A DNA stretch of 48,387 nt from Nitrospirota bacterium (lineage in GTDB: Bacteria > Nitrospirota > Nitrospiria > Nitrospirales > Nitrospiraceae): NCBI GenBank assembly GCA_005877775.1, contig VBOJ01000073.1, forward strand, positions 1 to 48,387. The letters run 5' to 3'. Below the pieces are notes generated by a model. That model worked only from the letters and a program-made list of their open reading frames with translations, did not search any database and was not told the origin of the DNA. How positions within the stretch are numbered: the first letter of the stretch is position 1; each line of letters opens with the position of its first letter. Below are positions 4,379-17,142 of the stretch, piece by piece. The position numbers were made by a program, and so were the translations under genes.

Positions 4379-6031
4379 CTATATTTCTGCGCGTCGCACG
4401 GATGAGAGCCGATCAGCGACTGCATGCGGGATGGCCTCCCGTGCGAGTCTCTTGGTGGCTCGGTCCAACTCGACCGCGCGTTGGCGGATCAGTCCGCCTA
4501 CGTACGGAGGATATAGTTCCACCCGCCCCAGCTCCCGCGCCTCGCGCGCCCACAGGAATTTGTACGATTCGTGGCCGTGGAGCAGGTCATACTCATCGGC
4601 GCCCTCCTCGATTGCGCTCTTGATGGCCAGTCCCATTGCGACCAGACCGACACTGTGCTTGCTGTATCGGGGATCAAACCCGGACTGATAAAAGTAAAAG
4701 GTCCGGTGGTACCTGAAGCCGTACAGCGATGCGGCCGGTTGCCCGTCTACCAGCAGAACAAACAGCCGGAGCCAGCCGCGTTCCAGAGCCAACCGACTCA
4801 GCTCTTCGTGGAATGCCAGAAGACTCTGCTTGTGCAAGCCATCCGAGCCGCCCCTGTCCCGCCAACGCTGGTGGTGCAATGTGATCAGGTTGGCCAGGGC
4901 CACACGCCGTTGCTCCTCGGATCGGACGGATTCGAACTCCACGGTGGCCTGTTTGGCGAGGTTCTTGAGCCTCCGTTGGAAGTTGTACCGGTGCTCCGGC
5001 CCCAGGCTGGCGAGATACGACTCCCAAGAGTGGCCTGACAAATTAATCAACGGACAGAGGTTGATCTTGGCTTCGGAGCAACCCCACCCGCGTGCCTGCA
5101 GCTCCGCGGTAAGCCCGGCCACCAAGCTGGACCGTCGGTTCAGGTGAGTCAGCATGACCATGAGCCGCTCTTGCGCCAAGAAGTCAGCCAGCAGGCGGCA
5201 GATGTCCGGTTCTTTCCCGCGCCGGATGATGAGGTCCAGATAATCGGACCCCACGCTTCCGGTGCCCAGGAATTCCAGCGAGCGGCACGGAATCAAGCCG
5301 ACCACGGTCCAGGATCTGACCGCGAACGGCGCGATCGCCACCAGCTCGCGGCCGCATCGCACCGTGATGAGAAATAGCTTTCGCCCTTCGGCCAGGTTTT
5401 TCCACCAGGTCCACAACCATTCCCAGGTCAGAAACAGGCAGTCGGCGGTGCTGTTTCGGAGCAACTCGTTCCACTCCTGCTTGAGAAGCTCAAACCTCTC
5501 GGGTTCCTGGATGATCTCGACAGTGGTCCCATCCGGGACCTTGCGTTCCGGACCGTTGTCTCCCGCCGCCATGCCTGGTGGGAAGGCGCCGTCATGGTAA
5601 TCCGTGATGTCGATGTCTCTTTGAATCACTCGGGCCGGAACGCCGGCCACAACGGAACGGCGCGGAACGTCTTCGAGGACGACGGCGTTGGCACCGACCA
5701 CCGATTCTGCACCGATGCGAACGGGGCCCAGAATCTTCGCGCCTGCTCCAATAAAGCAACGGTCTCCGACCACCGGGACTCCCCATAGGCGGGAACGACC
5801 ACCGATCGTGACCTGCTGGCCGATCGCCACATTGCTGCCGATCCGGCAACGACTGTGGAGGACGACCCCCATCCCACCGTGGCCGAATGTCGTGCCTTGA
5901 CCGATCTCCGCCGACATCGGGATGGACGAGTTGTAGATCAGAAAAATCAGGCGATGCATAAGCTTGGGAACAATGGGGATGCCCCGCGTATAACACCAAT
6001 GACCGGCACGGTATAAGGTGATAGCATTCAT
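4379..6031 (-). CDS. Fusion: hexapeptide (serine-acetyltransferase-like) domain plus CelD/BcsL GNAT domain
   Basis: Two acyltransferase modules share one 550-residue frame. Residues about 40-140 form a left-handed beta-helix of hexapeptide repeats like the C-terminal half of CysE/colanic-acid acetyltransferases, ending in the typical VVAGVPARVI. After a linker of roughly 30 residues, residues 170-520 match the CelD/BcsL family (GNAT-like, FemAB-related fold), with the early Trp-rich stretch TWEWLWTWW and a late region near HGHESYKF. The first domain would O-acetylate a sugar; the second would transfer an acyl or aminoacyl group. The ATG is preceded by AAGGG at 8 bp. The join is in open frame with no sign of a sequencing shift. 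The fusion is unusual; the substrates are not predictable from sequence. Confidence 0.85.
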   Translation of the reverse strand: MNAITLYRAGHWCYTRGIPIVPKLMHRLIFLIYNSSIPMSAEIGQGTTFGHGGMGVVLHSRCRIGSNVAIGQQVTIGGRSRLWGVPVVGDRCFIGAGAKILGPVRIGAESVVGANAVVLEDVPRRSVVAGVPARVIQRDIDITDYHDGAFPPGMAAGDNGPERKVPDGTTVEIIQEPERFELLKQEWNELLRNSTADCLFLTWEWLWTWWKNLAEGRKLFLITVRCGRELVAIAPFAVRSWTVVGLIPCRSLEFLGTGSVGSDYLDLIIRRGKEPDICRLLADFLAQERLMVMLTHLNRRSSLVAGLTAELQARGWGCSEAKINLCPLINLSGHSWESYLASLGPEHRYNFQRRLKNLAKQATVEFESVRSEEQRRVALANLITLHHQRWRDRGGSDGLHKQSLLAFHEELSRLALERGWLRLFVLLVDGQPAASLYGFRYHRTFYFYQSGFDPRYSKHSVGLVAMGLAIKSAIEEGADEYDLLHGHESYKFLWAREARELGRVELYPPYVGGLIRQRAVELDRATKRLAREAIPHAVADRLSSVRRAEI

Positions 6032-7330: not shown

Positions 7331-8584
7331 TCAGGGCATTCTGCGAAAACCCGACAAGCCACTCAGCCTCACCACGGGATCGCGCAGGAATCGATAACAC
7401 CGTAGCCTTTCCAGGCTTGGCACCACACGAAACTTGGCGTAGTAGAGGAGACGAATTCGTAAAGAGGTCGAAAAGACGTATAGCCAATAGTGAGATCGTG
7501 TTTGCTTGGTCCAGTGAAGTTTCCATGATTCACTGGCCCCAAGGAATTCATATTCAGCCAGGCCGCGTTCGCAGGCATCACGAAAGACCAAGTAACAGAG
7601 GAGATTGTAAGGAGAATAGGTGGCGTACTGTGGGTCATAACCGGCCTTGAGCACAAAGAGCTTGTTCCTGTAACAAAGAGCGTACGCAAAGGCGATCCTG
7701 CTCTGACCGACTGTCAAAAAGATCAACCGGAGCAAGCCGCTTCGCGAAGTCGCTCCAGCCAGTTGAGTTAAAAATCTCTTGAGCTCCGACTGGCAGAGAA
7801 TGGCCGTCCCCGATCGACTCTTCCAGTCCGATGCCTCGATCCGAAACCCGTCATTCAAGGCGGCGTCCAGTTGTTCACCCGAGGAGATGACCTCCAACTT
7901 CACCTCGCCGAGTTGGCCCAAGCGGTATAGCCATCGACGCACATTGTGTCGCTGGTTGGAACTGAGTCCTTTCAAATACGCCTCCCACCCGCCGGTCAAG
8001 TCGATGAAAGGCGAGTCCAACGAGCGCCAGATGCCTGTAAGGAACCCATCTGCTGTCGCCAGCCTAGGCAGCTCTTCCAATGCCCTGGAGCCGGCTGGCA
8101 ACTGGCACAACCGCACGACATCCCACAGCCCCTTTTGGGTCATGAGGTGCCTCCAAATTGCACGACAGGCCTCCTGCGAGCTCCGCGTCAGGACGAGGTC
8201 GAAACGCTCGGTATAAACATTGGAAATAAACTCCATCAGGCGTACCGGGCACCCGCACATACGTCCACGGCTCAGCATGAACGGAGCAATCGCGACAGCC
8301 TCCTCTCCCGCTTTCACGACGAAAATGCGAAGTTCCTTCCCAGTGCCGAAGCAGTCCCACCAGATGCGCACCCAGTCATGCCTGAGAAATGGATGATCGA
8401 TTCCTGCCCGCTCAACCAGGTGATCCCACACCGGCGCCAGCGATAGGAACGACCCGAAGTCAGAAATCGTCTCGACAGTGAGCCTGCGATCCTGAAACGA
8501 TCTGGTGCTGGCACCGGTACGACGCCTGTCCCCATCCAGTGGCCGCTGAGAAGTCGTCTTCGCTTCTGCCAATTTCGGACTCAT
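7331..8584 (-). CDS. CelD/BcsL-family GNAT acetyltransferase
   Basis: This 417-residue protein resembles the second domain of the fusion at 4379-6031. Both have a Trp-rich early motif (WVRIWWDCFG here), a central segment SSNQRHNVRRWLYRLG like the FemAB-type peptide-binding region, and a late region with LGASESWKLHW. CelD/BcsL proteins sit in cellulose and EPS loci and are thought to acylate the polymer or its precursor. The first 35 residues are polar and probably disordered. The start ATG at 8584 follows the next upstream gene by 29 bp. The donor (acetyl-CoA or an acyl-ACP) is unknown; the ACP encoded at 9827-10108 is a candidate by proximity only. Confidence 0.85.
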   Translation of the reverse strand: MSPKLAEAKTTSQRPLDGDRRRTGASTRSFQDRRLTVETISDFGSFLSLAPVWDHLVERAGIDHPFLRHDWVRIWWDCFGTGKELRIFVVKAGEEAVAIAPFMLSRGRMCGCPVRLMEFISNVYTERFDLVLTRSSQEACRAIWRHLMTQKGLWDVVRLCQLPAGSRALEELPRLATADGFLTGIWRSLDSPFIDLTGGWEAYLKGLSSNQRHNVRRWLYRLGQLGEVKLEVISSGEQLDAALNDGFRIEASDWKSRSGTAILCQSELKRFLTQLAGATSRSGLLRLIFLTVGQSRIAFAYALCYRNKLFVLKAGYDPQYATYSPYNLLCYLVFRDACERGLAEYEFLGASESWKLHWTKQTRSHYWLYVFSTSLRIRLLYYAKFRVVPSLERLRCYRFLRDPVVRLSGLSGFRRMP

Positions 8585-8613: not shown

Positions 8614-9762
8614 CTATTTGAAGCGCATGCACCATTCGCCTTCGAGCCGGGTGAGAACCGCATCCCCGGAATGGATGGACTGGAGGAGGTCGGGGTCGTG
8701 GGCATGAACCAGCACCCACATGCCGCGATGGTGATAGACACACGAGCTGCTGCACAACTCCTGCAAGAACCGGGGCTCGAGCCGGCCGGAGACGGCGACC
8801 ACTCCTTGCCGCCAGGCCTGATAGGACAAATGATCGAGCACGTCCGTGATCGAATGCTCCCTCGCTCCCAGGTGCAACACCTCTCCGATGCCTCCCCGCT
8901 TCAGATAGTACAGGTACCAGCCGAGGAGAGCGCCTGCCGCGTTTCGAACCGCCACCTTCTGAAACACGCCATGCTCCGCTTTCTGAGCCAGGATCTCAAA
9001 CAGCCACTGCAAAGAACGCTCGTCGTACTCCGCCCGCACCGACCGGTCGCGCGAGAATTCGGCCATGCCGGCCAGCAGCGTCTGCGCGTCCAGCTCCTCT
9101 CCAGCCATCTCAGGCGGCGTTTGGCAGAAGGGGCTCCGTGGCATCCGGGTGGCGAAGCCGTCCAGGAGCCGGCACACCGCCTGGGCTGTGGCGACAACCG
9201 GCGCGGGCAGGCGGTGCTTCCCAACCCGAGCCAGAACAAACTGGCTGGGCCGCAACAGCCGCCCCCAATACAGGCTGTACAACCTGGCGGTCACGCCCCC
9301 GGCACGTTCCCAGAGTCGGCGGGAGGTGTTGCTGGCTTCGTCGGCAATGGACAGGTCCTGCGGGCCGGACAGAAAGGCCTTCATGAGCTGCACGGCCGCC
9401 AGCGTGAAGCGACGGTCCGGTTCAACGATAAACTGGGAGCTGATCGCCGCTTGGATCGGTCGCCCTCGGAACGACATCCACCGTGGCATGACCCCGAGAA
9501 ACCCCACGATGGCGCCATCCGTGTCTTGATAGACGAGGGAGGACAGCTCCTCGTCGTACCACGGGTTGTTCAGAAAGATCTCCCGGAAATACGACGCGTA
9601 CGACCTCTGCATCTGGTCGGTCAGGTGATCGCCGGTGCCAAACACCCTCCGGTGCAGCTCCGCAACCTGCGGAATGTCTTCCTCGACAAACGGTCGGACC
9701 TGTCCCCTCTCGACTCGAGGAAGCTCTCGTGACGCTCGGTCTCTCACATCCCACCTGGCCAT
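8614..9762 (-). CDS. GNAT-family N-acetyltransferase-like protein
   Basis: The N-terminal 150 residues follow the GNAT pattern: an early V-R-P-F/E-D-I-P beta strand and helix (residues 21-35), then VYQDTDGAIVGFLGVMP and a strand-helix with ISSQFIVEPDRR where acetyl-CoA normally binds. The second half (200-380) appears to repeat a GNAT-like fold (GWYLYYLKRGG, then a helix with LDHLSYQAWRQG). This double-GNAT shape is known for some enzymes acting on amino-sugars or peptides. The 382 codons are intact. The gene follows the ACP gene by 64 bp and is probably in the same transcript. The exact acceptor cannot be read from the sequence. Confidence 0.8.
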   Translation of the reverse strand: MARWDVRDRASRELPRVERGQVRPFVEEDIPQVAELHRRVFGTGDHLTDQMQRSYASYFREIFLNNPWYDEELSSLVYQDTDGAIVGFLGVMPRWMSFRGRPIQAAISSQFIVEPDRRFTLAAVQLMKAFLSGPQDLSIADEASNTSRRLWERAGGVTARLYSLYWGRLLRPSQFVLARVGKHRLPAPVVATAQAVCRLLDGFATRMPRSPFCQTPPEMAGEELDAQTLLAGMAEFSRDRSVRAEYDERSLQWLFEILAQKAEHGVFQKVAVRNAAGALLGWYLYYLKRGGIGEVLHLGAREHSITDVLDHLSYQAWRQGVVAVSGRLEPRFLQELCSSSCVYHHRGMWVLVHAHDPDLLQSIHSGDAVLTRLEGEWCMRFK

Positions 9763-9826: not shown

Positions 9827-10108
9827 TCAGCCTTGGCACCCCGACGGACTGGTCCCACTTCCGATTTGTCTCTGACTCCTGACGAAGTCCGCGATCCGTG
9901 TGAGCGAGCGCACATGCTCCACATCGAGATTCTCAATGGAAATGGTGAGTCCAAACTCCTGTTCCAAATGCACCAGCAAGTCGACAAAGGTCAGGGAGTC
10001 CATCAGCCCCGCCTTTAATAAGTCCGTCTCAGGAGACAGCACGTCCAGCTCGAGCTTGTCCCGAAAAATCGCCGTGATTTTAGGGAGGGTGTCTAGTTCT
10101 CCTGACAT
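9827..10108 (-). CDS. Acyl carrier protein
   Basis: This 93-residue acidic protein has the ACP four-helix pattern and the phosphopantetheine site GLMDSL, with Ser38 as the attachment residue. An EQEFGLTI helix-III segment and a final RIADFV helix complete the fold. The last 15 residues (Gly/Ser-rich) extend beyond the normal ACP end. The start is 1 bp from the carbamoyltransferase stop, so the two are tightly coupled. Dedicated ACPs next to adenylation enzymes are a feature of exosortase-associated EPS loci, where the ACP would hold an activated acyl or aminoacyl group. Here the neighbouring adenylation enzyme is broken, so loading would need another ligase. Confidence 0.92.
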   Translation of the reverse strand: MSGELDTLPKITAIFRDKLELDVLSPETDLLKAGLMDSLTFVDLLVHLEQEFGLTISIENLDVEHVRSLTRIADFVRSQRQIGSGTSPSGCQG

Positions 10109-10109
10109 C

Positions 10110-11255
10110 TTAAAATCCGTTGTGATGAAATATTATTCGCGCACGAGGGACACGGCCGCGAGGCCTGAGCGACGTCTCTTCAGGGTCGCGGGGGAGCCCT
10201 CTGGTTCCGAGGCAGCGGGCGGCGCGGCGGCGGACCCGCACATTCTCCAGGAACAGGACGTCAATTCCCGTGCGCAAGAAGGTCTCCATCGCCTCGCGCG
10301 GCGTATTGACGATGGGTTGGCCCTTGACGTTGAAACTGGTGTTGAGCAGCATCTCCCGCCCGGTCGTTTTCCCGACCGCATACAGCAGACCATGGAAATC
10401 TTTGTTGTCGCGGGCGGACACCGTTTGGACCCGCGCCGAGCCATCGATATGGGTGACGGCCGGCAAGGCCTGGCGACAGTGCTCCCGGACCGGCACGGTC
10501 ATGATCATGTAGGGCAAGGCGGTCATGGGTTCGACCTCAAACCAGTGATGCACTTGCTCGAGGGACACGGCGGGGGCAAACGGCCGGAAGGCTTCCCGCT
10601 TCTTGACCATGACATTGATGCGGTCGCGCATCTCGGGATGCCCCGGATTGGCCACGATGCTCCGATGGCCCAGCGCGCGGGGCCCAAACTCCATTTTCCC
10701 GCGGTACCAGGCCACGACTTGCCCCTCGGCAATGCGCCGCGCCGCCTCCTGGCAGGTCTCCTCGAACGTCGCAAAACGAACGGCATCAATCAAATCTCGA
10801 AATTCACTCAGAGCAGCATTGACTTCTTCCATGGCATAGGCGGGGCCGAAAAAGGGCACCGGCGATCGCTGGTTGCGCACCCGGCCGACCTGCGACGCCC
10901 GATACAGCGCCGCGCCGACGGCCGCCCCATCATCCCCGGCCGCCGGCTGCACATAGAGCTCGTCGAAGAGGCCCGCCCGCAAGAGCTGGCCGTTGGCCGT
11001 GCAGTTGAGCGCCACGCCGCCCGCCAAGGCCAGCCGGCGGAGACCGGTGCGGGCCCCGAAGTGTCCACAGAGGTGCCGCATCACGCGGTCGAGACAGGCC
11101 TGGAGCGCCGCCACCACCACCGCTCCATCGATGACCAAGGCCGCTGCCGCATCGTAGCCCTGACACATCCGATACTCCCGGTCATCGAGCCCGGGCCAGT
11201 GGGCCTTTTGGAAGGCGACCGACTGTTCCAGCCCGCTCACGCCGAGAATCTTCAT
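10110..11255 (-). CDS. Carbamoyltransferase (NodU/TobZ/CmcH family) with a large internal deletion
   Basis: Full-length family members run to about 570-600 residues; this frame has 381. The first 48 residues look like the normal N-terminus of the Kae1-like domain (MKILGVSG, then GYDAAAALVIDG). The sequence then jumps straight to LQACLDRVM, which normally follows some 200 residues later. The lost block includes the HxxxH metal-binding motif of the carbamoyl-transfer site. The rest is well preserved: LAGGVALN (77-84) and a complete YrdC-like half containing KMEFGPRALGHRS (188-199), which forms carbamoyl-adenylate. A 40-residue Arg-rich tail extends past the usual end. The gene is expected to be transfer-inactive. 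The start overlaps the upstream gene by 4 bp (ATGA). Confidence 0.85.
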   Translation of the reverse strand: MKILGVSGLEQSVAFQKAHWPGLDDREYRMCQGYDAAAALVIDGAVVVAALQACLDRVMRHLCGHFGARTGLRRLALAGGVALNCTANGQLLRAGLFDELYVQPAAGDDGAAVGAALYRASQVGRVRNQRSPVPFFGPAYAMEEVNAALSEFRDLIDAVRFATFEETCQEAARRIAEGQVVAWYRGKMEFGPRALGHRSIVANPGHPEMRDRINVMVKKREAFRPFAPAVSLEQVHHWFEVEPMTALPYMIMTVPVREHCRQALPAVTHIDGSARVQTVSARDNKDFHGLLYAVGKTTGREMLLNTSFNVKGQPIVNTPREAMETFLRTGIDVLFLENVRVRRRAARCLGTRGLPRDPEETSLRPRGRVPRARIIFHHNGF

Positions 11256-11647
11256 AGGAGCCCTGACCGGGGCGCCGGTCGGTGCTGCAGGAAGTGTGCG
11301 GTCAGGGTGTTCCGATCAATTTTGCCGCTGGCATTCTTCGGCAGGGTGTCGAACGCCAGCCATAACGAGGGCACCATATACGGCGGCAGGACCTTGCCCA
11401 GTGCTTGCCGGAGCCCGATCGCAGTCACCTCCGTCTCGGGCTGGGGCACGTATGCGCAGCAGATGCGTGTCCCCTCAAAGCCATCCGCATCAATTTTTGC
11501 ACCTCCGTCTTTGAGGATCCTGGCGAGCTGATTGGACAAGCCTTCCAATCGGGCGTAGGTCAATGTGTCGTCGCTCCCGACAACGGCGACAGCCTCAGGG
11601 CAGCGCTCGGCCTGGCCGGTAATGAAGTCCGCTAGCAACTCTGGCAT
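11252..11647 (-). CDS. Adenylation (AMP-forming acyl/aminoacyl ligase) enzyme remnant, core deleted in frame
   Basis: The 131-residue frame joins the two ends of an adenylation enzyme that normally has about 500 residues. Residues 1-49 match the N-terminus (ERCPEAVAV, LTYARL, SNQLARIL). Residues 56-115 match the C-terminal subdomain (DGFEGTRICCAYVP, LPPYMVPS, NASGKID with the catalytic-type Lys109). Everything between is missing, including the P-loop and the core motifs that bind ATP and substrate. The protein therefore should not activate a substrate. It still has a strong ribosome site (GAGGTGG) and overlaps the monooxygenase gene by 16 bp, so it is still placed for translation. Whether it is a relic or a small partner protein is unknown. 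Confidence 0.8.
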   Translation of the reverse strand: MPELLADFITGQAERCPEAVAVVGSDDTLTYARLEGLSNQLARILKDGGAKIDADGFEGTRICCAYVPQPETEVTAIGLRQALGKVLPPYMVPSLWLAFDTLPKNASGKIDRNTLTAHFLQHRPAPRSGLL

Positions 11648-12660
11648 TTAGCCACCTCGCGAGCGCGATTGAATGTCAGAGTTACGTGGTGCAATTCTTC
11701 GGGATTCGTTGGCACGTCTAGAATGAACGTGCGGTACCCTGCGGCCATATAGCCCGCCAACTCTTCCGCAACGCGCTCATAGCTCCCGACCAAATACGGA
11801 CACATGGTCTTATAGTTCTGAAACGGAACGAGCCAATAGGTGTCCTGCGCCGCCTCTCGCCCTATCTCCGACAACTGCTTATGCCAGACAGAATCCGAGA
11901 CCTTCATCGCCAACTGATGGGCAAGCTGGCCCCTGCGATCTTCCGGGAAGCGAGCATGGGCGACCTCCCAGGCCTCTTCCTCGCGCTTACGGCTGATGAT
12001 GCCCACCCGGATTCCTGAATCGACGGACTCATCAGGCGGCTCGCCCTGACATTCCTTCGCCGGCTTCGGATACTTGACCGCGGTCGCGCCCATCGCTTTT
12101 GCGGCTGCCAGGCCCGCTTCGGACGATCCGGATACAAAAATTCCAGGAAACAGCTCCTGCGGCAGAGACGGCGACAGCTTCAATTTGTCCACCTTGTAAA
12201 ATCGCCCGTCGTAGCTCACTATGGCGTGGTTGGCCAGAAGCCGCCTGATGATCGTGGTGTATTCGATAAGTCGTTCGTAGCGTTGATCGTGCGGAGTGGT
12301 GTCATTCAACGCCGTCAAGTCATTCTTGAACCCGCCTGCCACCATATTGAGGTATAGGCGTCTCCCGTGGAGGTACCCGAACGATGTGACCATCTTGGCC
12401 ACCGCGTAGGGATGCATGTAGGCCGGCTGGACCGCAACAAGCGGACAGAGCGACTCGGTCTGCTGGATGATGATCTGGGAAACCAGCCACGGATCGACCA
12501 GGGAGTTGTCGGTGTATACGAGGATGCCCCTGCACCCCGCCTGTTCGCTCCACCGTGCAACATCCACAACATTTCGGACATAGGCCGTGGGGTCGGCGCC
12601 GCTGGATTGCGGACAGGTCGAAAAGATCTCGATGCCTGCGTCAAGCATGACGTTCTGCAT
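11632..12660 (-). CDS. LLM-class flavin-dependent monooxygenase (alkanesulfonate monooxygenase-like)
   Basis: This 342-residue protein has the luciferase-like monooxygenase TIM barrel. Visible elements are the SEQAGCRGILVYTDN strand, the VAVQPAYMHP segment, LNMVAGGF, a DGRFYKV strand, and FVSGSSEAGLAAAKAMG, which binds the FMN phosphate. The overall pattern is closest to SsuD-type enzymes, which use reduced FMN and oxygen. No flavin reductase is nearby. LLM proteins also occur as tailoring enzymes beside adenylation enzymes and carrier proteins in natural-product clusters, and this gene overlaps the adenylation remnant, so oxidation of a carrier-bound group is a reasonable guess. It appears intact. 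Confidence 0.88.
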   Translation of the reverse strand: MQNVMLDAGIEIFSTCPQSSGADPTAYVRNVVDVARWSEQAGCRGILVYTDNSLVDPWLVSQIIIQQTESLCPLVAVQPAYMHPYAVAKMVTSFGYLHGRRLYLNMVAGGFKNDLTALNDTTPHDQRYERLIEYTTIIRRLLANHAIVSYDGRFYKVDKLKLSPSLPQELFPGIFVSGSSEAGLAAAKAMGATAVKYPKPAKECQGEPPDESVDSGIRVGIISRKREEEAWEVAHARFPEDRRGQLAHQLAMKVSDSVWHKQLSEIGREAAQDTYWLVPFQNYKTMCPYLVGSYERVAEELAGYMAAGYRTFILDVPTNPEELHHVTLTFNRAREVAKCQSC

Positions 12661-12681
12661 AGTGCTCTCCTCTGTTGCTGT

Positions 12682-13956
12682 TCAGTTGGGTTCACGCATT
12701 CCGTGCGAACTGCCGCGCACCTGTGTGCCTCCGCGCGCGCCGGCCACTCGGAGCCTTGACCCGTTGAGGAGCTTCAGATACAGACGCTCCGTCTCTTGAA
12801 CCATGCGTTCGAGGCTGAAGCGCTCGACAACTCGCTGCCGCCCCGCCTGGACGAACCGGGAAGCCAGTCCGTGATTGTCCAGAAGGCGGCAGATGGCCTC
12901 GGCTAGCGCCGCCGGATCGCGCGGCGGCACGAGCAGCCCCGTGACGTCTTCCTCCACAGCTTCGGGATTGCCTCCCACCCTCGTGGCCACCACCGGCACT
13001 CCCGCCGCCATGGATTCCAGCAGCACGTTGGACAAGCCTTCGCTCAGCGAGGGCAGCACCGACACCGATGCCTCCGCCAGCACTTCCGGCACGTCGAGCC
13101 GGAAACCCGTAAAGACGACACGTTGGTCGACCCCGAGGCGGAATACATACCGCTCCAGCTCTTGCTTGTACGCGTCCCCGTCCACCGGGGCGACGTCCCC
13201 TACGATCAGGAAGCGCGCCGTCGGTACACGCGCGGCCACGATCGCCGCCGCCTCGAGGAAGTGCTCGAGCCCCTTGGTCCGAGTGAGACGGGACAGCACC
13301 ACCACTAGCGGACAATGCGAGGGCAGGCCCAGTTCCCGGCGCAGGCCGGCTCCGTTTCTGTTTCTTTGAAACCTGGAGCAGGCGATGCCGTTAGGGATCA
13401 CTGTGATCTGTTCCTGGCAGTAGCCTTCCGCGATCAGCCGTTGTCTGATCGCCTCAGCATTCACCACAATCCTGTCGGCGAGGCGGCAGACGAGTTTCTG
13501 CACTCGCCGTTGCAGGGGAGTCCACACCTCCCCGGTATCTCGAATCGACGCCAGAATGATTGGAACGCCTGCGAGCCGTGCGGACGGGATGGCGAACACG
13601 TTGGGATAAAAACCATAGGTATGGAGGATTTGAATGCGACGGCGTCTGAGGGATTCTGCAAAGCGGAACTGTTCTTTGAACGTACCGGGACGGTACAGGC
13701 TTTTGATCTTGTATTCCGAAACCGGTATCCCGCTGGCTTCGAGCTCCGTCAGCAGGTCTCCCCGGCGTCCCAAGCAGGCCAGGTGGAGTTCGAACAAGCA
13801 AGGGTCCAGCGCCTTTCCCAGGTTCAGAAACTGCCGCTCGGTTCCGCCGATGGCAAAACAGGTGATGAACTTCTGCAAACGAATCCTGCCCGGCTGAGCT
13901 GGGATAGAGTGCTGAGATGCGGGGATAATGTCGGCTGGCACACTTTCAATGAACAT
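12682..13956 (-). CDS. Glycosyltransferase family 4 (GT-B)
   Basis: The 424-residue protein shows the GT-B layout of family 4 retaining glycosyltransferases. The N-terminal domain holds GGTERQFLNL (acceptor side). The C-terminal domain holds the strand VVVLSRLTRTKGLEHFLEAA, the strand RFLIVGD, and the nucleotide-sugar motif SLSEGLSNVLLESMAAGVPV with its catalytic Glu pair (EGxxxxxxE). The frame extends upstream to 14109 but overlaps the preceding gene; the ATG at 13956 has GAGAG ahead of it and gives the normal family N-terminus. It would add one sugar to the lipid-linked repeat unit on the cytoplasmic face. It is the only glycosyltransferase in the visible locus besides the initiating sugar transferase, so others should lie outside the window. 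Confidence 0.93.
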   Translation of the reverse strand: MFIESVPADIIPASQHSIPAQPGRIRLQKFITCFAIGGTERQFLNLGKALDPCLFELHLACLGRRGDLLTELEASGIPVSEYKIKSLYRPGTFKEQFRFAESLRRRRIQILHTYGFYPNVFAIPSARLAGVPIILASIRDTGEVWTPLQRRVQKLVCRLADRIVVNAEAIRQRLIAEGYCQEQITVIPNGIACSRFQRNRNGAGLRRELGLPSHCPLVVVLSRLTRTKGLEHFLEAAAIVAARVPTARFLIVGDVAPVDGDAYKQELERYVFRLGVDQRVVFTGFRLDVPEVLAEASVSVLPSLSEGLSNVLLESMAAGVPVVATRVGGNPEAVEEDVTGLLVPPRDPAALAEAICRLLDNHGLASRFVQAGRQRVVERFSLERMVQETERLYLKLLNGSRLRVAGARGGTQVRGSSHGMREPN

Positions 13957-13981
13957 GGCTCTCTCGGGACCGAGCGACGAA

Positions 13982-15340
13982 TTAGCGCCGATCAGGGGCA
14001 AGCTGCCCCACTGAAGTTTGGTACACGGCTTTGGCAGCGACTGCCAGCCCAGCGACATAGTAAAAGTAGAAGTTGTAGCTGACCGGGTGGAACGGACCCG
14101 CAACGGCAAAGGCGACCAGGCTCACCTGGATGCCTTCGGCGAGAAGGAACAAATCCCGCAAGGCTGTCACACGAGCGGTCGATCGCTGAACACACATGAC
14201 ACTCTTCACGCACCCGATTAACAGCAAGAGGAACAGAGTGAGTCCGGGGACGCCTAGATCGACCGCATATTCGAGGTACACATTGTGCACAACCCTCCAG
14301 GCAACCCCGCGGGCCTCATTCAGCGCCAGGGTGTTCATCCCCACACCACCCCCTACGATCGGATGAGCCAGGACGTAGTTGAAAGCAGCCGCCGTGTCGT
14401 TCCACCGCTCCTGCGCCGATCCGGTCTGGTCTGCTTTGATATCTGTAATCGTGCTCAAACGGTCGAAATAACTGGATGGGAGCAAGGGAACGCACAGGAA
14501 CGCTACGAGGAGAGCCGACCAGGCCCATGACCGTTCCGGCCGATTGCGGAGTTTCCATAGGTAGATGGTGAATGTCGCCGCCAGGGTCAGGAAACCCGCA
14601 CGGGAGTAGGTGATGATCACCGTTACCAATTCCAACAGGATGGCACCAAGCAACAAGGCGCGAGCCAGTGGTTCCCGGTGGATCAAAAAGAGCGCCACGC
14701 TTAATGGGAGGATCAGGTTGATCATGAGAGCCAGATCGTTCGGGTTCTTCGTCAACGCGGCATTGTTCCCCACGAGGCGCGGCAAAAGGCTGCTTTCGGC
14801 CATGAACGTCCCGGAGAGGAAATTAGCCGCCGCCATCGCGGCAAGCCCCACCGCCATGAGGCTCAGTCCCCAGGCCACGTGACGCAGTCTCGCGACCGTG
14901 ACCACGGTGTGGCTGAGCAACCAGAAGATTGTCAGCGTCTTGAAGTATTGGTCAAGGAGGAACGAAAGGCTGCCTCCCGGCCAGGAGGAAAACGGAATGG
15001 TGAGGACGGCCCAGCCGACCAGGTATGCAGTGATCCACATCTCGCGCACGCGCATCATGAGGGGGCGTCCATGAATGAACCGATCGTACAGATACGCTAC
15101 AATGCCTATGAGCGCCGCGATCAGCGCAATCCGGAAGGACGCGAGAGCCGGAACGTAGGATTGCGGCGCAAACAACAAGATGAACGTGAAGCCCATCACC
15201 GCCCAGAACGGGACGGGGCTGGCTGCGACCGGAATCGGCGCAACAGCCGGCCAGCCTGCTTGCACCTGCGTGAGGGCCACAGCATCAGGCCGCCACCATT
15301 CCGCGCCTGTTTCGCGACTCATCCACCAATCGCGTGTCAT
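13982..15340 (-). CDS. O-antigen ligase/polymerase-type membrane protein (Wzy-like)
   Basis: This 452-residue protein has about ten to twelve membrane helices and one large periplasmic loop. The loop carries the Wzy_C/O-antigen-ligase signature: AHPIVGGGVGMN, then VVHNVYLEYAVDLGVPG with the conserved His-Asn. Such proteins polymerise or ligate undecaprenyl-linked sugar chains in the periplasm, and in exosortase-type EPS loci they are often annotated as putative O-glycosylation ligases. The ATG overlaps, as ATGA, the stop codon of the WecB-like remnant just upstream (15337-15546). This tight join suggests the remnant was once a normal member of the operon. Confidence 0.9.
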   Translation of the reverse strand: MTRDWWMSRETGAEWWRPDAVALTQVQAGWPAVAPIPVAASPVPFWAVMGFTFILLFAPQSYVPALASFRIALIAALIGIVAYLYDRFIHGRPLMMRVREMWITAYLVGWAVLTIPFSSWPGGSLSFLLDQYFKTLTIFWLLSHTVVTVARLRHVAWGLSLMAVGLAAMAAANFLSGTFMAESSLLPRLVGNNAALTKNPNDLALMINLILPLSVALFLIHREPLARALLLGAILLELVTVIITYSRAGFLTLAATFTIYLWKLRNRPERSWAWSALLVAFLCVPLLPSSYFDRLSTITDIKADQTGSAQERWNDTAAAFNYVLAHPIVGGGVGMNTLALNEARGVAWRVVHNVYLEYAVDLGVPGLTLFLLLLIGCVKSVMCVQRSTARVTALRDLFLLAEGIQVSLVAFAVAGPFHPVSYNFYFYYVAGLAVAAKAVYQTSVGQLAPDRR

Positions 15341-15546
15341 GAATGCTGGGTGAAGCTTTTCGTCGTTGCCATCGCCTGCGGGGATCCCGTTGGCTGACGC
15401 TCTAGCAGGATTCCAACGATCCGTTCCGCCGCCCGGCCGTCCCAGAAGGGAGGAGGCCCGGATGGGTGAGGCGGATGCTCCAGATTCCAGAGGGCCTCCG
15501 TCACAATCCTCCCCGGATCGGTGCCGATGAGTCGATTAGTTCTCGG
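15337..15546 (-). pseudogene. wecB: Remnant of a UDP-GlcNAc 2-epimerase (WecB-type) gene, C-terminus only
   Basis: Directly after the stop of the sugar-transferase gene, and in the same frame, the minus strand encodes RLIGTDPGRIVTEAL and then DGRAAERIVGILLERQP. This matches the end of WecB-type non-hydrolysing UDP-N-acetylglucosamine 2-epimerases (VGTDPERI, then DGRASERIV). The remaining 300 or so residues are absent and there is no in-frame ATG. The 69 codons end in TGA overlapping the next ATG. I infer that a deletion removed most of the gene. The full enzyme would have made UDP-ManNAc, so the organism may have lost this sugar from its EPS unless another copy exists. The identification rests on motif recognition, not on an alignment. 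Confidence 0.65.
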
Positions 15547-17142
15547 TCAGCTTTCCTTGCTCGCCGCGGCATCCAGCCGACAGCCGTGGCCATGCGCCTG
15601 CGTAAGCGGCAACGTTTCGGCCCAGGCCGTCTCGACCGCACACCGGTTCTGTGGAGAGGGTTGCCACCTCGACGGTGTCGGCAGATCCGCCTGAACTGAG
15701 TCCGTTGAGGTCGCCTGATGGTTCACCGCTTTCGTATCTGCGGCGATCGTCCGGGCTCCGTCTTCTCGCATTTCGTGCCCCAAGAAGACGATCTTGACTG
15801 TCTCGAAGAGGATGCGGAGATCAAGCCAGATGGAAAGATATTTGATGTAGTAGAGGTCATAGCACAACTTCTCGATCTCTTCCTCGAGGTCATTTGCGTA
15901 GCGATAGCGGACCTGCGCCCAGCCGGTGATCCCCGGTCGAACCATTGACCGGAAGGAGTAGTACGGAATTGGCGCGCCGGATTCAGAAGCATTTCGTGAC
16001 ACCAGGACAAAGAGTTCAAAGTTCGAGGCTGGGTGCGGCCTTGGTCCCACGAGGTTCATGTCGCCGCGCAGGATATTGACGAACTGAGGCAGCTCGTCGA
16101 GCCGGAACTTGCGGAGCCAACGGCCGACCCTGGTAATCCGGTCGCCGTTGTCCTTGGCCCATTCCGACCTGTGGCTGCTGACCAGGTGCATCGTGCGGAA
16201 CTTAATCAATTGGAAACGTCTTCCTCCTTTGCCCACACGCTCCTGAACGAAGAAGACGGGACCGGTGGAGTCCAGCTTAATCGCCAGGGCGATCAGACCG
16301 AGGAGAGGAGCGCAGAGGACGAGTCCGATGATCGACACCAGGAGGCTAATCGTGCGTCCGAACGCCAGATCGAGGCGGAATTTCCGGAAATCTCTTGAGA
16401 AAATGAGGTTGCTCGGCATGAGCGATTCGATGGCGAGCTTCCCGGTCAGCCGTTCGTAGACCTCGATGCCGTCCTCCACGACGATGCCGTTGACCCGGGA
16501 CTCCAGAAGGTCATTAACCGGCAGCCGTCCACGGCGCTCGGTCAACGCCGCCACAATCCGGCTGGGTCGAACCTCCTCGATGATGTGGCGGAGGTGCCTG
16601 CGGGAACCCAGAAGCAGGTGACGAGGGACAACTGGATCCGACGACAGGACGTCATCGACTACACCGATGACCTTACAATGCTGCCGAGCTTCAAGCTCCG
16701 CAATCAAGGACTGAGCCAGCGGCGTGGCTCCCAGAATCAGCACGCGATCGAGGAACAAGCGGCTCTTCATGACTCCATAGGACGCGGCCCGGATGAGCAG
16801 CAGCAGACCAGCCGTGGTGAGAAAACTGGCGACGACGGGTCCTGCGGAAAACTGAGCTTGCGGGAGCAGCACATACAAAAGGGACCCTGCCAGCACCACG
16901 GCGGCGCCGAACGATCCGGGCAGGCGGGACAGAAACTGCGGAAAGCTGCGGACAGTTCGGAAATCATAGAGGTCGTTGTAGTAGAAGGTCACGCCGCAGC
17001 AGAGCGACAGCGCGAGGGCCTGTGCAGGCCAGTTCGCCATCTCGATCGGGCTGACCGCAGAAAGGTCTGCCCACATGATCGTCGTCGCGTAGATCGCCGT
17101 GAAGATCGAGCACATCTCGATGAACAGGAGGATGAGCATCAT
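15547..17142 (-). CDS. Undecaprenyl-phosphate sugar phosphotransferase (WcaJ/EpsB type), with an atypical C-terminal tail
   Basis: This initiating enzyme moves a sugar-1-phosphate from a nucleotide sugar to undecaprenyl phosphate. The N-terminal half has several membrane helices and a Rossmann-like CoA-binding-type domain (VLILGATPLAQ). The C-terminal bacterial sugar transferase domain shows KFRTM, LDELPQFVNILRGDMN, VGPRPH and RPGITGWAQV. The normal family end comes near residue 457 (after IVFLG). A further 74 residues then follow with no family character, ending at the TGA that precedes the WecB remnant. I think the tail is deletion-derived sequence read through in frame. The general type matches the sugar transferases of PEP-CTERM-associated EPS loci. 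Confidence 0.93.
   Translation of the reverse strand: MMLILLFIEMCSIFTAIYATTIMWADLSAVSPIEMANWPAQALALSLCCGVTFYYNDLYDFRTVRSFPQFLSRLPGSFGAAVVLAGSLLYVLLPQAQFSAGPVVASFLTTAGLLLLIRAASYGVMKSRLFLDRVLILGATPLAQSLIAELEARQHCKVIGVVDDVLSSDPVVPRHLLLGSRRHLRHIIEEVRPSRIVAALTERRGRLPVNDLLESRVNGIVVEDGIEVYERLTGKLAIESLMPSNLIFSRDFRKFRLDLAFGRTISLLVSIIGLVLCAPLLGLIALAIKLDSTGPVFFVQERVGKGGRRFQLIKFRTMHLVSSHRSEWAKDNGDRITRVGRWLRKFRLDELPQFVNILRGDMNLVGPRPHPASNFELFVLVSRNASESGAPIPYYSFRSMVRPGITGWAQVRYRYANDLEEEIEKLCYDLYYIKYLSIWLDLRILFETVKIVFLGHEMREDGARTIAADTKAVNHQATSTDSVQADLPTPSRWQPSPQNRCAVETAWAETLPLTQAHGHGCRLDAAASKES

Follow-up and report, generated by a model that had tools for sequence, protein, structure and literature searches.

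Probable recent decay of accessory surface-sugar enzymes in an exopolysaccharide operon of a Nitrospirota bacterium

Results

The window (the whole stretch of DNA that was analysed, 48,387 nucleotides, contig C255) belongs to a draft, metagenome-type assembly of 3.06 Mb in 309 contigs, which is 92% complete with a contamination of 2.65%. Its minus strand carries an exopolysaccharide (EPS) operon of the PEP-CTERM/exosortase A type with genes for a tyrosine autokinase, a sugar transferase (TIGR03013), a PEP O-ligase (TIGR03097) and a GT4 glycosyltransferase (TIGR03088), and the GT4 gene is followed by a module encoding a luciferase-like flavin monooxygenase (LLM), an AMP-ligase, a carbamoyltransferase (CarbT), an acyl carrier protein (ACP) and GNAT enzymes. 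The components that characterize XrtA/PEP-CTERM EPS clusters, EpsB_2, the XrtA tyrosine kinase, the stp2 glycosyltransferase and PEP_O_lig, were detected by family matches in a single operon; these matches score below the curated cut-offs and the assignment is based on these components, not on the exosortase itself. The operon is tightly packed: there is a 16-bp overlap between the genes for LLM and ligase, and ATGA overlaps connect ligase with CarbT and the frame of a WecB remnant with Wzy. The features are given below from upstream to downstream; G080 is a genome of the same order.

15547..17142, minus strand: EPS polyprenyl glycosylphosphotransferase (EpsB_2/XrtA type), intact, upstream flank; TIGR03013, protein residues 13-456 on profile 7-440/443; 61% to G080 SugT
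15394..15540, minus strand: remnant of WecB (non-hydrolysing UDP-GlcNAc 2-epimerase); join at ~15540; 67% identical across 49 aa with the intact WecB in G087:C70; TIGR00236 C-terminus, E 0.036
13982..15340, minus strand: Wzy_C/O-ligase, exosortase A associated, intact; TIGR03097; 58% to G080 over 436 aa
12682..13956, minus strand: GT4 glycosyltransferase, intact; TIGR03088 7-374/374; 65% to G080, 81% to L029; start is ATG, placed by inspection
11632..12660, minus strand: LLM, intact; PF00296 10-313/314; 73% to G080
11252..11647, minus strand: AMP-forming acyl/aminoacyl ligase with a 408-codon in-frame core deletion; join at ~11494-11500; intact in G080
10110..11255, minus strand: carbamoyltransferase (NodU/CmcH type) with a 720-bp in-frame core deletion; join at 11106-11112 (GGCGGCG); native stop lost
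9827..10108, minus strand: ACP, intact, DSL serine present; PF00550, E 4.8e-11
8614..9762, minus strand: GNAT-like acyltransferase, intact, downstream flank; 60% over 367 aa to G080
7331..8584, minus strand: FemAB-like GNAT, intact, downstream flank; PF13480; 57% to G080 over 380 aa

The 131 amino acids of the ligase correspond to the first ~50 and the last ~75-80 residues of AMP-ligases, joined directly, and match PF00501 at positions 4-44 of 384 and PF13193 at positions 22-76 of 76. The orthologue from G080 is intact and has 538 amino acids, and the offset across the join in the window is 408 codons, which corresponds to an in-frame deletion of 1224 bp. Similarly, the CarbT of 381 amino acids matches Pfam Carbam_trans_N only at positions 276-346 of 346, and its match to Carbam_trans_C is complete. 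When compared with a 586-aa allele encoded on contig C115 of the same bin, it displays a deletion of exactly 720 bp (240 codons), again in frame, by which residue ~49 is fused to residue ~292 of the intact allele and the catalytic core loses its HHxxxH and IDGxGE motifs. About 7 bp of microhomology at this join can be deduced, with C115 standing in for the true ancestor. Also, the CarbT stop codon has been lost via substitutions and a small indel and the tail now ends 1 bp before the ACP start. In the case of WecB, a 67-codon frame between the sugar transferase and Wzy genes, which runs to a TGA overlapping with the ATG of the next gene, holds the last ~49 residues of the enzyme. The family match alone is weak (TIGR00236 positions 314-364 of 366, the extreme C-terminus), but an intact WecB from the EPS locus of G087, with a frame of 409 codons, gives a clear match: its C-terminus and the remnant are 65-67% identical along 49-51 aa. 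Neither Epimerase_2 nor a further WecB-family epimerase was found anywhere in the 92%-complete assembly.

When compared with G080 or with family models, the LLM, GT4, Wzy, sugar transferase, ACP, both GNATs, an aminotransferase, a deacetylase and a flippase align over most or all of their extent, and the genes neighbouring the remnants are full length. The original prediction, that three enzymes within 6 kb have lost their middle or front and that the genes around and between them are intact, is therefore borne out. No other gene of the 48-kb window that could be assigned to a family appears to lack its core in a comparable way, and at a rough estimate (about 0.05) a random scatter of events is unlikely to have placed three such genes within 6 kb. 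Elsewhere in the window, a CysE/EpsC-like hexapeptide acetyltransferase and a FemAB-like GNAT form a single 550-aa frame (4379-6031), these being separate genes in different frames in G080, and a DndB-like (DNA phosphorothioation-associated) protein is encoded near the contig end (46789-47901).

Contig C115 (G000:C115, L101; 3,068 bp) contains a ligase core interrupted by a run of N, the ligase C-terminus, the full CarbT with its frame intact and the start of an ACP gene, in the same order ligase-CarbT-ACP as in the window. Flanking the CarbT join, the two contigs are 83% identical on the ligase side and 87% on the CarbT side, reaching 90% over the gap-free 3' part of CarbT. With regard to the check proposed in the original prediction, segments missing from ligase and CarbT are thus present elsewhere in the assembly, although in the form of a diverged copy. 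Because C115 differs from the window by 10-17% in nucleotides and its flanks fall short of near 100% identity, an artefact in which a piece of the window contig was displaced was rejected; judged by this divergence, C115 is a diverged allele or a paralogue and not excised DNA. Two alleles in one bin possibly reflect a strain mixture. No other near-duplicates were found in the bin within the 16-kb stretch searched, and LLM is single copy, with no second copy in the bin.

When changes in CarbT are polarised by the full outgroup set, 12 synonymous and 17 nonsynonymous ones fall on the window branch, compared with 32 and 12 on the C115 branch (Fisher p=0.014); restricting the outgroups to the two nearest genomes gave p=0.14. 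The C-terminus of the ligase displays no branch asymmetry (8:11 vs 6:12, synonymous to nonsynonymous, outgroup-polarised). Between remnant CarbT and the intact C115 allele, omega is ~0.22.

Short forms common to many genomes, named in the original prediction as evidence that would count against it, were not encountered, neither a short ligase nor a short CarbT occurring in any of 119 relatives, and a conserved short form of these two enzymes was rejected on this basis. Direct comparison within the genus is not possible because the same-genus genome G001 has no LLM gene. In a close relative (L029), the LLM gene at 1155-2095 (92% aa in the conserved part) contains two frame-breaking gaps of 35 and 41 bp, and the frame of its ligase continues to the end of the contig. 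In L105 (G009:C160, ~2280-2345), an otherwise conserved CarbT has a frame-breaking gap of 92 bp with respect to G027, which is either real decay or an assembly error. At L036 and L103 of G080, carA and carB adjoin EPS genes (nucleotide-sugar dehydrogenase, carbamoyltransferase). Between sugar transferase and Wzy, the G080 operon apparently contains genes for a nucleotide-sugar dehydrogenase, carA, carB and a carbamoyltransferase (contigs C261 and C154, joined by inferred gene order), and this arrangement supports carbamoylation as a putative trait of this operon type.

Discussion

We consider it reasonably probable that the locus has undergone a recent, probably multi-step and non-polar decay of accessory surface-sugar enzymes in an EPS operon, which is ordinary biology, namely pseudogenisation of a known kind. 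Slippage or illegitimate recombination at microhomologies of a few bases would probably have removed the catalytic cores of ligase and CarbT, and a third deletion would have removed all of WecB but its C-terminus. In-frame deletions would be the ones to survive because translation of the downstream genes in a tightly packed operon continues, which would amount to a filter for non-polar deletions. Lacking the ATP-binding core in one case and the HHxxxH/metal-binding core in the other, the ligase and CarbT fragments are very probably enzymatically dead, and the WecB remnant, as read from its sequence, cannot supply ManNAc. From this we infer a glycan without the carbamoyl/acyl mark and without the WecB-derived ManNAc sugar. 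A loss of surface-sugar enzymes by separate deletions fits with the data (three joins, additional decay of CarbT, WecB absent genome-wide), and the predicted stepwise course is plausible. To speak of one specific decoration is too strong, as WecB provides a sugar precursor, ligase and CarbT belong to a modification module, and ACP, LLM and GNAT are intact. Phage pressure as the driver of this loss is a guess.

The strongest alternative is an assembly artefact, in which differing alleles of co-occurring strains confused a short-read assembler so that it joined across missing segments. Local errors have been described for assembled metagenomes, notably for those made with IDBA-UD (PMC7111523), the same bin holds the second, diverged allele with its N gap on C115, and draft contigs of relatives show the out-of-frame gaps of 35, 41 and 92 bp in otherwise conserved genes of the same module. 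However, deletions of 720 and 1224 bp are both in frame, which is expected by chance in one of nine cases, and they appear far larger than the normal misestimate of a short-read gap. A misjoin at a k-mer repeat was ruled out, no repeat of k-mer length being shared at any join. Also, the independent loss of the CarbT stop is not expected from an assembler, and the excess of nonsynonymous change in CarbT (significant with the full outgroup set, not with the two nearest outgroups), the absence of WecB from the entire bin and the unaffected remainder of the 48 kb likewise count against an artefact. Because of the in-frame deletions, the CarbT microhomology, the lack of a k-mer-sized repeat, the loss of the CarbT stop and the branch asymmetry, a real deletion, counting in the redundancy variant discussed next, is likely and an artefact is rather unlikely.

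In that variant, C115 would be an intact second ligase-carbamoyltransferase copy and the window copy a decaying duplicate, so that the modification is kept. Presence in the same bin, the identical gene order and the intact 586-aa CarbT agree with this, but short contigs such as C115 (3 kb) are easily assigned to the wrong bin (PMC7111523), and neither a second LLM in the bin nor near-duplicates of other operon genes in the 16-kb stretch were detected, making redundancy improbable. The function of ligase and CarbT may persist in the genome or population via C115, and loss of the trait in the strain of the window hinges on its status: should this contig hold a paralogue, the modification may have been retained. 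That the short forms serve as dedicated small proteins with a function of their own is extremely unlikely: although the frames are open and remnant CarbT is still similar to the intact allele, catalytic cores are absent, none of the 119 relatives has a short ligase or CarbT, and the low omega is explained by shared history before the deletion, the window branch being enriched for nonsynonymous change.

If the decay of accessory enzymes is real, a surface-polysaccharide locus has been caught in the middle of its simplification, and the intact allele of two broken genes in the same bin could be used for studying variation of surface glycans between strains. A more general proposal, that tightly overlapping glycan operons preferentially lose accessory enzymes by in-frame core deletions, with translation of the downstream genes maintained, and so can simplify their glycans one gene at a time while the operon stays whole, is doubtful; this locus would then be a snapshot of such a process. 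Caution is also advisable with draft-genome fragments annotated as 'ligase' or 'carbamoyltransferase', which may be core-less. The literature on the ligase-LLM-ACP-carbamoyltransferase module and on short-repeat deletion in pseudogenes yielded nothing directly on point.

With NodU/CmcH-type carbamoyltransferases, the CarbT of the window shares a complete C-terminal domain and the N-terminal ~49 residues, whereas it lacks the 240 codons that include the metal/carbamoyl-adenylate core. With PEP-CTERM/exosortase A EPS clusters (TIGR03013, TIGR03088, TIGR03097, TIGR03018) the operon has the same components by family match, but here an LLM-ligase-ACP-GNAT module is added and ligase, CarbT and WecB are broken. 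A further likeness is to pseudogenised surface-polysaccharide genes (O-antigen, capsule or EPS accessory genes), where accessory enzymes are inactivated by deletion in an otherwise intact glycan operon; in contrast to these, the present case consists of three remnants within 6 kb, with two in-frame internal deletions in tightly overlapping genes, in a single draft genome.
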